NCBI GenBank assembly: GCA_029261035.1 | Contig: JAJDCD010000008.1 | Coordinates: 248,001 to 312,000, forward strand | Reading direction: 5' to 3' | DNA length: 64,000 nt | Origin: Candidatus Omnitrophota bacterium | GTDB lineage: Bacteria; Omnitrophota; Omnitrophia; Omnitrophales; JACROU01 | Shown here: positions 46,215 to 58,669 of the stretch, piece by piece | Layout: every line of letters begins with the position of its first letter | Numbering within the stretch: the first letter of the stretch is position 1 | Translations under genes and position numbers: made by a program | Notes under the pieces: generated by a model | Databases searched by the model: none | Told to the model about the DNA's origin: nothing | Seen by the model: the letters and a program-made list of their open reading frames with translations, nothing else

Positions 46215-46291
46215 GGGGGCGTAGCTCAACTGGTTAGAGTACCTGACTGTCGATCAGGATGTTGCGGGTTCGAGTCCCGTCGCTCCCGCCA
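46215..46291 (+). tRNA. tRNA-Asp (anticodon GTC)
   Basis: Complete cloverleaf on the plus strand. Acceptor GGGGGCG/CGCTCCC with one G-T pair, anticodon stem CCTGA/TCAGG around CTGTCGA (anticodon GTC), T-loop TTCGAGT, encoded CCA at 46289-46291. Its 3' part is one arm of a long inverted repeat (see next entry). Confidence 0.97.
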
Positions 46292-46365
46292 TATTTAGAA
46301 CATAAAAAAGGCCATCCACATAGGATGGCTTTTTTTATGTCTAAATGGGAGCGACGGGACTCGAA
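46269..46365. repeat. Long inverted repeat spanning the tRNA-Asp 3' end and its terminator
   Basis: The 19 nt of tRNA-Asp at 46269-46287 recur as an exact reverse complement at 46347-46365. Between them the left (46293-46317) and right (46323-46346) segments are also nearly complementary, leaving a 5-nt loop at 46318-46322. The whole forms a stem of about 43 bp with a small bulge at the CCA. The centre is an ordinary terminator hairpin; the outer part has been extended into the tRNA. Confidence 0.9.
46304..46336 (+). terminator. Rho-independent terminator after tRNA-Asp
   Basis: GCCATCC (46311-46317) and GGATGGC (46323-46329) with a 5-nt loop, preceded by an A-run and followed by seven T. 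It can act in both directions. Confidence 0.9.
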
Positions 46366-53193: not shown

Positions 53194-56100
53194 CTAAGCT
53201 GAAGTCAGAACTCCTTGTACGTAGTTCTTCCATTCTTGAGCCCATTTTTGAATTTGCTCTGACAAGAAATTTGAAGCATAAGAATCTCTAGAATTTAAAT
53301 TAATAGAAGCTTTTTGTTCTGGTGAAAGCTCACTAAAAGATAAAACGGCAATTCTTCCACTCAACACACGTACAAAGGCCAAATCAGAATCATAATTAAC
53401 TTGTTTTTCAGACGTCAAATCATTATAGATTCGAACAGAGTCCCCATACCCAAGGCCTTCAATTCTCTCTGAAGCACCTAAAAACACGGTGTGATTCATC
53501 AGCCCAAGTAAACGGTTCGGCAACTTAATTCCATGCTGCATAATGCCTCTATAAACTTGATTCATAAGCTTATATTTCAAATATTTTTTCAGTTCTTTTT
53601 GACTGATATTCGTTAGGACAATCACATCAAAACGATCTCCAATCACTTTCTGAACCCCATCCATTTGTGATTGAATTCGATCAACCACGGATTGAACCTG
53701 AGTTACATCAGACCCCGTATAAATCAACCTGACAAATAATTCAGGATGAACTTTTAAGTTAGCAAGAATGCTTTGAATATCACTTTCAGATAAAGGAGTA
53801 TCTTCAATAACTTCGATTTGCAAACCCACTCCCCATTTTAGATCTGTAAGTAAAGTTGAAGCTTTCTGTAACAGATTTACTTCTGTTTGAACATTCGATT
53901 CAAAATTGCCTGTATCTTCTTGTGATTGAGCGGAAGCTTTTAAATCAACCAGTTCTTCGATAAGAGTTCTCATAATAGCAATAGAAAATCCTTCAATTCT
54001 TTTTGAAAGACTTTCATAAGTAGGTAGAACAGAACCTAATGCAAGTGATGTGGATAAAACCAAAGATCTATTAAAAGAAGTCTTTTCAGAATTCAGCAAG
54101 GTTCCTAAACTGCGCGCAGTCACTCCACCAAGTTCCAATACAAGAGTTGACTGGTGCGGATTCGCGTCGCCCGTAACTTGTGTAGAAAGAAGTTCTACTT
54201 GAACAATCTTGTCTCGGTCTAGAGCCGCTAAAGGAGAGTTTGCTCCAGAAAATATACTGAGTCCTACATTCTGATTTTCAACTCCTTGGAACAAAAGGCT
54301 TTCTGCAATTGCTCCACTATTATCTGTAAAACGAATAATAAATTGTTGAGGCACATCCGTTGTTGTGCGAAGTAAATTTATATCTAACTGATCTCCTAAG
54401 ACAAAAAATGTATTGGGTTGAGTCGGAGTTAAAATAAACCCGCTTTCAGTATTTGTGGAATCTGTTGCAAAATTTAATGTTAGCTGCTCTGGATTTTGAG
54501 CATTCTGAGTTAAACTCGTTCCGCTAGAAGAATTACCTGTCTTTGTGAAGTCTGCATTTTGAGTAGGGTCAATGTTTCCAAGAGCTGCAAAGCTAGTTGT
54601 ACTTAGAGCTGGAAAAGAGGCTCCTATACTAGTTTCACTTGAAGCAGCAAAGCCTTGAATTTCAACAATAACTTCCCCTGTCATTGTCTGGTCATCAGAA
54701 AGAACCAAATTAAGCTCTAAAACTTGTGCTAAATCAAAACCTGTAGGAATAGTTGCTGGGTCCAATAGAATTTCAAAAACATGGTTATTAGCGGCTACCT
54801 GTTGAGCTAGAGTTTTGTATACTTCTCCTGCCCTATCTTTCAACTCAACTATAATACTAGAAGGAATACTCCCTGAAGCAAACTGAACATTCATACGAAA
54901 TAAGCCATTCAAATTATTGAAATTCATAAAATCTTCAGGATCGGTAGGCTGAGGGGTGTCATTATTATTAGTCGTAATTTGCAAACCAGAAAATTCACCA
55001 TTTTCTGTTTTAAATATTAGTTTAACTTTATTAGCCCCTATCCTCTGAACTGTTGTTCCAGGAACAGAGCCTCCTAATGTTTTAATTTCTGGAATTCTAG
55101 GGTTTGATGAGACAACTACAACAGAACTCAAACTTGTAGTCATCGCTGTTGGAACAGAATTTTGAGCTGTTATTCTTCTTAAAGAATTCACTCCTTGAAA
55201 AGTCACTCTCAGATCCCCCTCAAAACTGCCAGAAACAGATGTGTTCTGACTACTAATCAAACTAATCTCTAAAATACGAGTTAAGATCAAATTAACACTG
55301 GATAAAGGAACCCGTAAAGTCGCTTTAGAACCATCAAATTGAGTGATAGAAAAAGACTTGCTAAACGTAATTCCCATTTCATCAACAAACTGAACTTTAA
55401 ATTCATTCGGTAAGTCCCCTGAAATTTTCTCAATATTGAATACTATTTCTGAAAAGGAAGAAATATCCATAAAGTCTTCGGCTGTTTTATTAGCAATCAC
55501 TCCATTATCATCTTTATTATCTTTGGTAATAGTAACTCCACTATAATCAAAATTATTATTTGGATTTGTTGGCTGAGCAGTATGCTTATAGTGCCAAATA
55601 ACACTATTCTGACTATCAAAAAAGACTGTCGTTTCTATGTTGCTGCCCCCCGTGACCTCTGCGAAGGATGTCCTTAATTGCCTAGGAAACAAAGTAGTAC
55701 TGCTATCTACTACAGCCGGCTGAGACACGGCAATCTGCGGCAGACCAGCTGCAGTTCCAGAAGATCCAGAGTCACCTCCATGATGACAAGCAGAAAGAGC
55801 AAAACTAACTAATCCTAATAGCATAACCATCTTTAAAGACGAAAGAGTAAACTTAAACCGAGGCAGATAACCCTTCAGAGTTCCACCCAAACTTCGAGCC
55901 ATCAAAACATCTTCTTTAACAGACTGCTGGTTTTCTAATGCACTATCTAATTCTAATAAATTCCCTACCGAAAACTGAACACCTGGTCTAAAGCTTTTCC
56001 AAGAAATCCTTAGTAGGGCCACTCCTTCAGAATCCAAAATAGGTAACACCTGAATCTCTTCACCCATAAATAAATCATTCTTTCTTAACTCTAATTGAAG

Positions 56101-57924
56101 AGTATGGGCTAACGATTGCAAATCTAATCTAGAGTCTGAATTTTTCACCAAATCAGTTATAGCTTCATGGATGCCCACTTTCACAAAAGCTTCCATCATC
56201 CATTTAACACGGTTGCGATCCCAAGCACCTAAGTCACTCTGATAGCCTTCTGCCATAAAAAGCTCCGGAACAATGTAAGACTCAACAGGCTTCCTACTCT
56301 CTTGAACACGCCCTAATAAAACTTCTTCATAAATTTCAGATAAATACTGATCCCCTTCAGTACCTGTTTGATAAACTTGAGGAGCTATACTGATAAATCC
56401 TAAACCCCTACGCTTCATCTCTTCTTGAATTCCTTTTGTATGATACCCTCCAGTTACAAATGCAATAGCTGACGTCTTATGTCTGTGACTTAAATGAACT
56501 AAATTATCAACAAATGATATTTCCCTCTGCTCTGCACCGTCATAAAACTCTAATGCTAATCGATATTGTTGAAGCAATGAAGATTTGGTTTCATTAAAAT
56601 ATTCAAAAAAATCAAGATCTAACCCCTCTACGGAAACCCCTAAAGAATCTATTATATTCTCCGATCTGCTTCTCACATGATCTAAATCAGAACGTGAAGC
56701 TTCTAAAAACAACACTCTTTTCAATAAATGAAACTCTCTTTCAGCATGGATAAGTTCTTCTTCGTCATTAGATTTAGCCATATTTCTTTCTAATCGGTAT
56801 ACCAACTGATCAAACTCATTAAAGAAAGCCGTTCCTTCAATCTCTTCCTTTAATATAAGATTTTTTAGAACCCTTAATATTGAGGGAAAAGAGTCCCAAC
56901 CATTAGAACTTTTGACAACATAAGTATGTAATTGCTCAAACATCTCTCTCCAAGTTTTATAATGAGCACTTAATTTAGGATCTATTAAATTCATTGTTAT
57001 TAATTCATGAATTAAAGCATTTAAGTTCAAAAGAGCATGCTTTTCATCCCTGAGTAATGCCCGCAAATTCTCTAACTCCTCAGAAAAAGTTTCAGCGCTA
57101 TATTCCTCTGATTCATTTATAAGGAAATACATTCTATAAAGGTTGGGGTAATCTAGTTGAATTAAAGGATTTTCAAAATCAAGAGCAAGTCTTTCCTCTG
57201 CCTCTTTTAAAGTTTTCTTATAAAAGTAAGGCGCATTCATAGATTTTCTATTTTGAAATGTTTGATATAACTGGTCATACTTCAAAAGTTGAGGGTTATA
57301 GAAATTTGTTTTAAGCTTTGCTATTTTTAAATCTACTTGTTTCAATTCTTTCTTTACATCAACCTTTTCTTTAAGTGCTTTTCGAAACAACTTTATATTA
57401 TCTTTATACCTATCCAAATCCTCTATCCCGCTTACATTGATCTCCGTAGAAGATCCACTCTGTTCTAAAACAAAAAGCTCGCCACCTGTAATAAGTCCTT
57501 TTTCTAATAAATAATTCGCAATTACTAAATTATTATTTTTATTTTCCGTGATCTTTAAGACATTCGGGTCTATTTTTTTATGTGCCCCTTCAAAAGCAAA
57601 CGTGTTTATATTGTAAGTATCTTTTACGTATTTTAATAAATGAGAAATCTTTCTTTGAATTGGAGCATTTGTATGGGCATCTTGAATATGAATAAAAGTT
57701 GGGAGTTTCTGTGTTTCTTGTTTTGGTAATCGAAAATGTTGAATACTTCCAATATTTTCCGGAACAGAAAAACCTTTGAGCACTTTTATATTTTCGAAAG
57801 AATTAGCTTTAGGATTGATAGTAATGCTAGAAAAGTTAATTGGAGTTTGAGAGAAAACACTTGAAGAAATCATCATGATCACAACTAAAAGAGAAATAAT
57901 TTTTATATTATTTTTATAACTCAT
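53194..57924 (-). CDS. Giant secreted protein: ChaN/TraB-like domain plus an internal lipoprotein signal and beta-rich modules
   Basis: 1576 residues from the ATG at 57924 (AAGGG 7 nt upstream; a GTG five codons earlier is weaker). A signal peptide covers 1-26. Residues about 60-560 resemble the ChaN/TraB/Tiki class: FIHIQDAHTNAPIQRKI, FAFEGAHK and, at the end, AFVTGGYHTKGI. Around residue 700 a second signal-like helix, MVMLLGLVSFALSAC, ends in a lipobox Cys713 and is followed by a glycine/serine linker. Three modules like those of the 2170-aa neighbour follow (about 740-1280), then a 270-residue helical C-terminal region. The internal lipobox suggests fusion of two secreted proteins. Function unknown. 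Confidence 0.7.
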   Translation of the reverse strand: MSYKNNIKIISLLVVIMMISSSVFSQTPINFSSITINPKANSFENIKVLKGFSVPENIGSIQHFRLPKQETQKLPTFIHIQDAHTNAPIQRKISHLLKYVKDTYNINTFAFEGAHKKIDPNVLKITENKNNNLVIANYLLEKGLITGGELFVLEQSGSSTEINVSGIEDLDRYKDNIKLFRKALKEKVDVKKELKQVDLKIAKLKTNFYNPQLLKYDQLYQTFQNRKSMNAPYFYKKTLKEAEERLALDFENPLIQLDYPNLYRMYFLINESEEYSAETFSEELENLRALLRDEKHALLNLNALIHELITMNLIDPKLSAHYKTWREMFEQLHTYVVKSSNGWDSFPSILRVLKNLILKEEIEGTAFFNEFDQLVYRLERNMAKSNDEEELIHAEREFHLLKRVLFLEASRSDLDHVRSRSENIIDSLGVSVEGLDLDFFEYFNETKSSLLQQYRLALEFYDGAEQREISFVDNLVHLSHRHKTSAIAFVTGGYHTKGIQEEMKRRGLGFISIAPQVYQTGTEGDQYLSEIYEEVLLGRVQESRKPVESYIVPELFMAEGYQSDLGAWDRNRVKWMMEAFVKVGIHEAITDLVKNSDSRLDLQSLAHTLQLELRKNDLFMGEEIQVLPILDSEGVALLRISWKSFRPGVQFSVGNLLELDSALENQQSVKEDVLMARSLGGTLKGYLPRFKFTLSSLKMVMLLGLVSFALSACHHGGDSGSSGTAAGLPQIAVSQPAVVDSSTTLFPRQLRTSFAEVTGGSNIETTVFFDSQNSVIWHYKHTAQPTNPNNNFDYSGVTITKDNKDDNGVIANKTAEDFMDISSFSEIVFNIEKISGDLPNEFKVQFVDEMGITFSKSFSITQFDGSKATLRVPLSSVNLILTRILEISLISSQNTSVSGSFEGDLRVTFQGVNSLRRITAQNSVPTAMTTSLSSVVVVSSNPRIPEIKTLGGSVPGTTVQRIGANKVKLIFKTENGEFSGLQITTNNNDTPQPTDPEDFMNFNNLNGLFRMNVQFASGSIPSSIIVELKDRAGEVYKTLAQQVAANNHVFEILLDPATIPTGFDLAQVLELNLVLSDDQTMTGEVIVEIQGFAASSETSIGASFPALSTTSFAALGNIDPTQNADFTKTGNSSSGTSLTQNAQNPEQLTLNFATDSTNTESGFILTPTQPNTFFVLGDQLDINLLRTTTDVPQQFIIRFTDNSGAIAESLLFQGVENQNVGLSIFSGANSPLAALDRDKIVQVELLSTQVTGDANPHQSTLVLELGGVTARSLGTLLNSEKTSFNRSLVLSTSLALGSVLPTYESLSKRIEGFSIAIMRTLIEELVDLKASAQSQEDTGNFESNVQTEVNLLQKASTLLTDLKWGVGLQIEVIEDTPLSESDIQSILANLKVHPELFVRLIYTGSDVTQVQSVVDRIQSQMDGVQKVIGDRFDVIVLTNISQKELKKYLKYKLMNQVYRGIMQHGIKLPNRLLGLMNHTVFLGASERIEGLGYGDSVRIYNDLTSEKQVNYDSDLAFVRVLSGRIAVLSFSELSPEQKASINLNSRDSYASNFLSEQIQKWAQEWKNYVQGVLTSA

Positions 57925-58197
57925 ATGATTACCCTTCACATATTAACTTTAATTTTATTAAACATTTTTTAATATATTAATAAAGATTGTTAAAAGTTAG
58001 CACATAGCTGAAAAATTGTCAAACTTAAAGTATTATTGAGATATATTGAGATATAAGGGTTTATTAAGAATATTTAGAGATATATAAGGATAATTACTTA
58101 TAAATGGTCTAAAATGGTGTTTTATATAAAGAATTTATAGAATTAGCTTATAAGTGAATTACTTAAAATATCTAATTTTGAGAGATAATGAAGAAAA
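57925..58197. other. AT-rich region between the 1576-aa gene and tRNA-Val
   Basis: No gene. Very AT-rich with repeated GAGATATA words (58036-58085). It should hold the promoter of the giant gene and the 3' trailer of tRNA-Val; I see no defined promoter or terminator. Confidence 0.5.
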
Positions 58198-58274
58198 TGG
58201 TGGGCGATGGAGGGATCGAACCCCCGACCTTCTGAATGTAAGTCAGACGCTCTAACCAGCTGAGCTAATCGCCC
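58198..58274 (-). tRNA. tRNA-Val (anticodon TAC)
   Basis: Complete cloverleaf on the minus strand. Acceptor GGGCGAT/ATCGCCC, anticodon stem TCTGA/TCAGA around CTTACAT (anticodon TAC), encoded CCA at 58198-58200. Confidence 0.97.
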
Positions 58275-58669
58275 ACAAGAGGGGTAATACTTACTACTGT
58301 TATAACCTTACAAAACTTCTTAGAACTTTCAAGTTCTTGTCCTTCACCTTCTGGTGGAGGGAGCTAATCGCCCTAATTCGTAGGATATTCGGTATTATTA
58401 TATACTTCCGGTACTAATTATCAATTACTACTACTTGTCCTTCACCTTTGGTGGAGGAAGCTAATCGCCCACAAGAGGTGTAATACTTAAAGTGTATATA
58501 ACCTTACAAAACTTCTTAGGACTTTCAACCACTTGTCCTTCGCCCTATGGCGGAGGGAGCTAATCGCCCACAAGAGGGGTAATACTTACTACTGTTATAA
58601 CCTTACAAAACTTCTTAGGACTTTCAACTACTTGTCCTTCAGCCAAGCTGGAGGAAAGCAGTCGCCCAC
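58262..58669 (-). repeat. Four ~98-bp tandem repeats made of the tRNA-Val 5' end, its leader and a hairpin
   Basis: Units begin at 58262, 58361, 58458 and 58557, with a decayed fifth start at about 58658 (period 97-99 bp). Each starts with the tRNA 5' end (complement of GAGCTAATCGCCC), continues through a spacer and ends in a hairpin with 9-bp arms. The hairpins are at 58340-58361, 58438-58458, 58536-58557 and 58635-58655. Upper-stem bases differ in paired fashion: CACC/GGTG twice, CGCC/GGCG, CAGC/GCTG. Spacers of units 1, 3 and 4 are alike, while unit 2 has an unrelated spacer of the same length. No gene lies between 58275 and 58781; 58670-58781 is AT-rich and featureless. Confidence 0.9.

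Follow-up and report, generated by a model that had tools for sequence, protein, structure and literature searches.

The tRNA-Val (TAC) gene in the window (the whole stretch of 64,000 nucleotides that was analysed) is preceded by a tandem array of four units of 97–99 bp, each built from the first 12–13 nt of that tRNA, a hairpin with a 9-bp stem and a loop of 3–4 nt, the motif CAAG and a spacer of 60–61 bp, in this order. Read on the tRNA strand, the units occupy positions 58667–58570 (98 bp), 58569–58471 (99 bp), 58470–58374 (97 bp) and 58373–58275 (99 bp), which confirms the tRNA-Val-derived, hairpin-bearing array described in a first-pass annotation. Its membership of a class of tRNA-linked 5' fragments followed by hairpins is well supported, and the array may well consist of ORF-less scars left by homing-type insertions that regenerate the tRNA gene, a reading in which we place about even confidence. 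The features of the locus are as follows:

58198–58274, minus strand: intact tRNA-Val (TAC), the working copy at the array end (ARAGORN; Rfam RF00005, 70.7 bits)
58275–58335, minus strand: spacer S1, the leader of the intact tRNA-Val (identity 95% to S4 and 85% to S3)
58340–58361, plus strand: unit 1 hairpin, TCCTTCACC-TTCT-GGTGGAGGG
58362–58373, minus strand: unit 1 tRNA-Val 5' fragment (GGGCGATTAGCT)
58374–58433, minus strand: divergent spacer S2 (unit 2)
58438–58458, plus strand: unit 2 hairpin, TCCTTCACC-TTT-GGTGGAGGA
58459–58470, minus strand: unit 2 tRNA-Val 5' fragment
58471–58531, minus strand: spacer S3
58536–58557, plus strand: unit 3 hairpin, TCCTTCGCC-CTAT-GGCGGAGGG, with a compensated change of A-T to G-C
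58558–58569, minus strand: unit 3 tRNA-Val 5' fragment
58570–58630, minus strand: spacer S4
58635–58655, plus strand: unit 4 hairpin, TCCTTCAGC-CAA-GCTGGAGGA, with a compensated change of C-G to G-C
58656–58667, minus strand: unit 4 tRNA-Val 5' fragment, outermost and decayed (GGGCGACTGCTT)

The tRNA fragment, GGGCGATTAGCT(C), is exact in three of the four units and mutated to GGGCGACTGCTT in the outermost one; unit 4, with its outermost and most mutated stub, is probably the oldest. The hairpin of unit 1 is preceded on the plus strand by CTTG, which is the CAAG found after the hairpin on the tRNA strand. Spacers S1, S3 and S4 are mutually 85–95% identical, and the spacers resemble one another and a leader rather than the remnant of an ORF. 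For the spacer of unit 2, initially annotated as unrelated and of equal length, independence is not clear, as it shows 55% identity to S4 (shuffle p 0.02) and 52% to S3 and S1 (p about 0.25). It may have diverged or been replaced, and its length could reflect fast divergence. Beyond the hairpins, no significant remainder of the tRNA was detected in the spacers, and a reading of them as decayed tRNA sequence was therefore dropped. The array hairpins showed no intrinsic terminator, an Rfam scan of the locus returned no known RNA family besides the tRNA itself, and the tRNA-Val is uninterrupted and matches no group I intron family (ARAGORN, Rfam). Metagenome assemblies can mishandle repeats, but an artefact is less likely here because the four units differ in sequence. 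A 1,581-aa ORF without any Pfam match at E 0.01 adjoins the array (53194–57939 of the window, minus strand).

On the plus strand, all nine pairs form in each of the four hairpins. One unit has G-C at pair 8-17, where the other three have A-U, and one has G-C at pair 9-16, where the other three have C-G; a T-G pair is kept in all four. The paired changes at two positions, from which covariation had been proposed, are therefore present, but their strength is suggestive only, as 37 of 500 shuffles reached the observed covariation and the four units are few and related to each other. A broader comparison used 37 related hairpins, taken from tRNA fragments and from elsewhere in the related genomes, which follow the pattern arm6-TTC-inner-TAC-arm6 or close variants of it and comprise 21 distinct arm pairs. 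Of the 126 pairs, 125 hold when read on the strand opposite the tRNA and 112 when read on the tRNA strand, and none of 2,000 shuffles reached the pairing of the 21 arm pairs, a score that is inflated by the search having demanded arms that pair or nearly pair and that comes from mutually non-independent sequences. Read on the opposite strand, 14 of the 15 mismatches are G.T (A.C versus G.T on the tRNA strand 14:1, P 0.001). This strand bias is not a product of the search, because the pairing requirement treated both strands alike, and the C-to-T bias that coding strands usually show would lead one to expect the opposite. On the same opposite strand the internal loop of the related hairpins reads GUA/GAA or GAA/GAA, and CA(A/G)G directly follows the hairpin on the tRNA strand in all four array units and in 24 of the 37 related hairpins elsewhere. 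Of the proposed selection on an RNA structure made from the strand opposite the tRNA, maintenance of a structure is thus supported by the pairing across the hairpin class, and so is a class-wide strand bias; the bias itself could be caused either by an RNA function or by a step involving hairpins of single-stranded DNA.

Within the same genome (G000), the strict hairpin pattern has three matches, all in the Val array; the hairpin motif was not found outside the array in the 917-kb genome sample, nor was a second dispersed copy of the entire array found in the genome. Fragments of a tRNA's own 5' end, on the other hand, lie upstream of six tRNAs: Val (four units), Asn (two), Thr, Leu-TAA, Leu-TAG and Lys. 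The genome search that the first-pass annotation had proposed thus gave the hairpin in the Val array only and tRNA 5'-end fragments at five further tRNAs. By a stricter count, an own 5' 9-mer occurs upstream in 5/40 tRNAs (control 0.2). One of the two tRNA-Asn units has the dispersed palindrome CCTGCCTGCCGGCAGGCAGG in its D-loop, the tRNA-Thr fragment is cut at nt 21 by a related palindrome, and the tRNA-Lys fragment spans nt 3–12 and is followed by TCTGCC..GGCAGA and CAGGCAG. We also considered whether the Val hairpin is itself the dispersed palindrome and rejected this, as the sequences differ. The palindrome and its near variants are found at roughly 10 sites of G000 and roughly 42 of the related genome G001 but at none of G002, and are often nested in the loops of other palindromes.

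Other rearranged tRNA pieces were seen in this genome. An insert of 62–81 bp (CACGCACTATGCTAAGCGTGAACAC...) occupies a common D-loop position in the broken copies of tRNA-Leu-TAA and tRNA-Leu-TAG, and is found in part just downstream of tRNA-Tyr; sites of this type are L073 1681–1761, L075 4525–4586 and L078 1330–1373. The tRNA-Asp gene of the window (46215–46291) has an inverted copy of its nt 55–73 at 46347–46365 on the minus strand, 55 bp downstream, and two similar 3'-end pieces, joined to the same AAAAAAAGCCATCC terminator, lie away from tRNAs (contig C24, ~422708 and ~426664). At L020 (contig C3), the 3' end of tRNA-Val-GAC (nt 55–74) is repeated in inverted orientation 10 bp downstream, so that the repeat and the end of the gene itself make up a hairpin of 20 bp.

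By searching 84,980 species for an intact GGGYGATTAGCTCAG with a broken GATTAGCT on its upstream side, we obtained 33 stretches, about 28 of which have a hairpin exactly after tRNA nt 12–13; most of these also have a preceding GGGY, which the pattern did not require. The matches belong to Patescibacteria (Peregrini-, Peri-, Magasanik-, Nomurabacteria and others), Omnitrophota, Neomarinimicrobiota, KSB1, Kiritimatiellales and Bacteroidota, while the four matches lacking a hairpin (Psychromonas, Rhodopirellula, a gammaproteobacterium and Sansalvadorimonas) look like chance. At L166, L173 and L177 the tRNA sequence picks up again after the hairpin, and L197 has two units in tandem. In two Patescibacteria, an own 5' end was found upstream of 13/48 tRNAs (G003, which contains L197; control 0) and of 8/35 tRNAs (G004, which contains L187; control 0.4). 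Other tRNAs have 3' ends downstream, and near-complete dead tRNA copies carry palindromes in their D-, anticodon or T-loops with unmutated stems; the places where fragments end are concentrated around the D- and T-loops. The architecture, whose absence beyond this locus would have spoken against the initial proposal, therefore recurs in other genomes, and the Val array shares the features of the class, which are an own 5' end that is repeated upstream and interrupted in the D-arm by a hairpin, and CA(A/G)G immediately behind that hairpin.

Among the closer genomes, 2/16 tRNAs have their own 5' end upstream in G001, and G002, from the same family, has such fragments at 0/22 tRNAs despite its GIY-YIG genes, as well as no array at its tRNA-Val. 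No close relative with an empty Val site was available, the genus being a singleton and the G001 contig ending 2 bp upstream of tRNA-Val. The Val/Ile arrangement was not found in viral contigs.

Further peculiarities accompany these loci. Behind the hairpin there is often a short stretch of the tRNA 5' part in inverted orientation (e.g., CCGCATAGCT...AGCTATGCGG), as at L017 (tRNA-Lys), L014 (tRNA-Thr), L176, L182, L192, L197 and L238; by pairing with it, the stub would form a larger, closed stem-loop. At L177 (7966, plus strand) a hairpin of the same class begins directly at the tRNA 3' CCA end. In G003, two tandem 3'-end fragments lie downstream of tRNA-Arg-GCG (L236, with an 84-bp period) and of tRNA-Trp (L233), a mirror image of the Val array that recalls E. 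coli rtT.

Searches with the GIY-YIG domain (PF01541) across the genomes having the arrangement revealed small nuclease ORFs linked to tRNAs: 9/12 in G004 (P ~8e-12) and 4/8 in G003 (P ~1e-4) have a tRNA no more than 250 bp away. They stand between the broken and the intact tRNA copies at L314 (Omnitrophica), L210, L120, L216, L226 and L217, and at the first three of these loci the ORF reaches into the intact tRNA at its 5' end. At L314, nt 1–31 of tRNA-Tyr with palindromes are followed by the GIY-YIG ORF and the intact tRNA-Tyr; at L216, the order is a 5' fragment with hairpin, the intact tRNA-Ile, the GIY-YIG ORF and a tRNA-Ile copy whose D-arm is replaced by TCCGCCTAGGCGGA. Residues Y6, Y17, G19, R27 and E63 of the domain are invariant. 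The genome of the window has such an ORF at tRNA-Thr (L014/L115, contig C18:24198–24395, Pfam E 5e-16); it ends in ..MKLA-TAG, the TAG being nt 8–10 of the tRNA-Thr 5' fragment, which meets its palindrome at nt 21 with the intact tRNA-Thr just downstream. No GIY-YIG gene was found near the Val array, the only one on the contig being a 475-aa ORF of UvrC size 138 kb off. Some GIY-YIG genes lie away from tRNAs, and many fragments have no nuclease gene. The tRNA-associated mobile origin that had been suggested is favoured. A Y1/REP transposase, also considered as a cause, proved uninformative: it is present in 10/12 genomes, including G002, which has no palindromes or fragments, and absent from G001, which has both.

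The claim that the array matches no known class was too strong, as two systems are close to it in design. The rtT repeats of E. coli tyrT are tandem units of about 178 bp downstream of the tRNA, each with the tRNA 3' end. They resemble the Val array in that tandem units adjoin a tRNA gene and each contain a piece of that tRNA, but they differ from its 97–99-bp units, which lie upstream and contain the 5' end and a hairpin, and the Rfam RtT model had no match in the array up to E 5. SegB of phages T4/T6 is a free-standing GIY-YIG homing endonuclease of tRNA clusters, which cuts tRNA loci and amplifies a tRNA segment by way of the homology that the 3' end of segB shares with the 5' region of the tRNA (PMC13096335); it sets a direct precedent. 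The small GIY-YIG gene beside tRNAs, the homology of the nuclease 3' end to the tRNA 5' end and the tandem amplification of tRNA segments are all similar; SegB, however, deals with full-length tRNA genes in phages, whereas here truncated hairpin stubs are found in bacterial chromosomes, with a GIY-YIG gene lacking at the Val array and present at tRNA-Thr of the same genome. Homing endonuclease insertions, intron-like and mostly LAGLIDADG, are also known in the rRNA genes of CPR bacteria (PMC11270868). There, too, structural RNA genes of Patescibacteria harbour homing endonuclease genes, but the target is rRNA, whereas the loci described here hold a partial duplicate of a tRNA gene beside an intact copy. 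The distinction from CRISPR and REP holds. Instead of the identical repeats and unrelated spacers of CRISPR, three of four Val spacers are 85–95% identical, and a Pfam scan of the four ORFs flanking the array found no Cas domain. REP elements are palindromes tagged with GTAG or CGTC (PMC3733652), and the hairpin class resembles them as oriented, imperfect palindromes of 20–40 bp with a short conserved one-sided tag, dispersed in related genomes. The tag of the class, however, is CYTG on the strand opposite the tRNA (at the Val foot, CTTG on the plus and CAAG on the tRNA strand), the Val hairpin exists only as array copies, and Y1 transposase genes do not track the feature.

We propose that the Val array is a series of four pseudo-copies of tRNA-Val, truncated to its 5' end and lying upstream of one working tRNA, each stub having been broken in the D-arm, after nt 12–13, by a hairpin followed by a re-made leader. 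In the class as a whole, insertions or partial duplications inside tRNA genes would restore an intact tRNA and leave the broken end alongside, 5' ends upstream and 3' ends downstream, and in the complete, autonomous form a GIY-YIG endonuclease gene would separate the broken copy from the intact one. A homing-type GIY-YIG enzyme, acting in cis or from another locus, would cut the tRNA gene in the D-/anticodon region, and repair would copy in the nuclease gene or a spacer together with the tRNA 5' part. Because a new 5' part would be copied in, the 3' part of the old gene would stay in use and its 5' stub would remain. Repeated events at one tRNA gene would produce an array, and that of tRNA-Val, presumably descended from an ORF-bearing form, would record repeated ORF-less events. 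Palindromes in the loops of a dead copy may keep it dead and unlike the target.

Growth without any nuclease, by slippage or unequal recombination of the leader and tRNA 5' end followed by entry of dispersed REP-like palindromes into the non-functional copies, seems to us possible but rather unlikely. Plain tandem duplication of the leader and the tRNA 5' end is conceivable because the spacers are leader-like and without significant tRNA remainder, and the close identity of three spacers, the dispersal of palindrome families in related genomes, the dead but almost complete tRNA copies that hold palindromes in several loops and the lack of an ORF at the Val locus all suit such a history. It would leave unexplained, however, why GIY-YIG genes lie beside tRNAs far above chance and extend into tRNA 5' ends, and the clustering of fragment ends in the D- and T-loop regions and the lack of dispersal of the Val hairpin in its own genome also argue against it.

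The remaining alternatives assign a function to the array. The hairpin and a 12-nt tag complementary to the tRNA 5' end might form an RNA of the opposite strand, acting as an antisense or guide-like regulator, which we consider improbable: the excess of pairs and of G.T on that strand, the shuffle result, the form of the internal loop and the T-G pair retained in all four units agree with it, but the promoter scan found no promoter-like site on the plus strand of the array, the related G002 manages without such an array, the sequences are non-independent and single-stranded DNA hairpins would give an equal bias. It is more doubtful still that the loci represent a tRNA-parasitic element class of several phyla, in which the opposite-strand hairpin and 12-nt tag would direct a GIY-YIG enzyme or repair to tRNA genes; such RNA- or single-stranded DNA-aided homing with target regeneration strikes us as a long shot. 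Finally, each unit could add a promoter and thereby raise or buffer tRNA-Val expression, the stubs and hairpins being by-products. S2 does contain a near-consensus promoter (TTGATA-16-TATAAT, 11/12, 58424–58397, minus strand), and three of four units have leader-like spacers; yet the scan gave three sites, compared with an expectation of 1.5 from shuffled sequence, S1, S3 and S4 had none of them, and the hairpins and 3'-side fragments would be left unexplained, which makes this proposal very unlikely.

The literature searched contained no description of the chromosomal form, though other papers may exist; the stubs would escape tRNA finders, which may explain why the pattern seems undescribed. 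If the regeneration of tRNA genes by homing-type insertions is confirmed, the tRNA genes of many uncultured bacteria would have been repeatedly entered, destroyed and rebuilt by small elements, which would account for the scattering of tRNA fragments, the tandem arrays and the fusion of nuclease genes to the 5' ends of tRNAs. Phage SegB homing, repeats like rtT of E. coli and loop-seeking palindromes would then be joined in one testable picture, and these genomes would be a source of GIY-YIG enzymes that possibly recognise tRNA genes.
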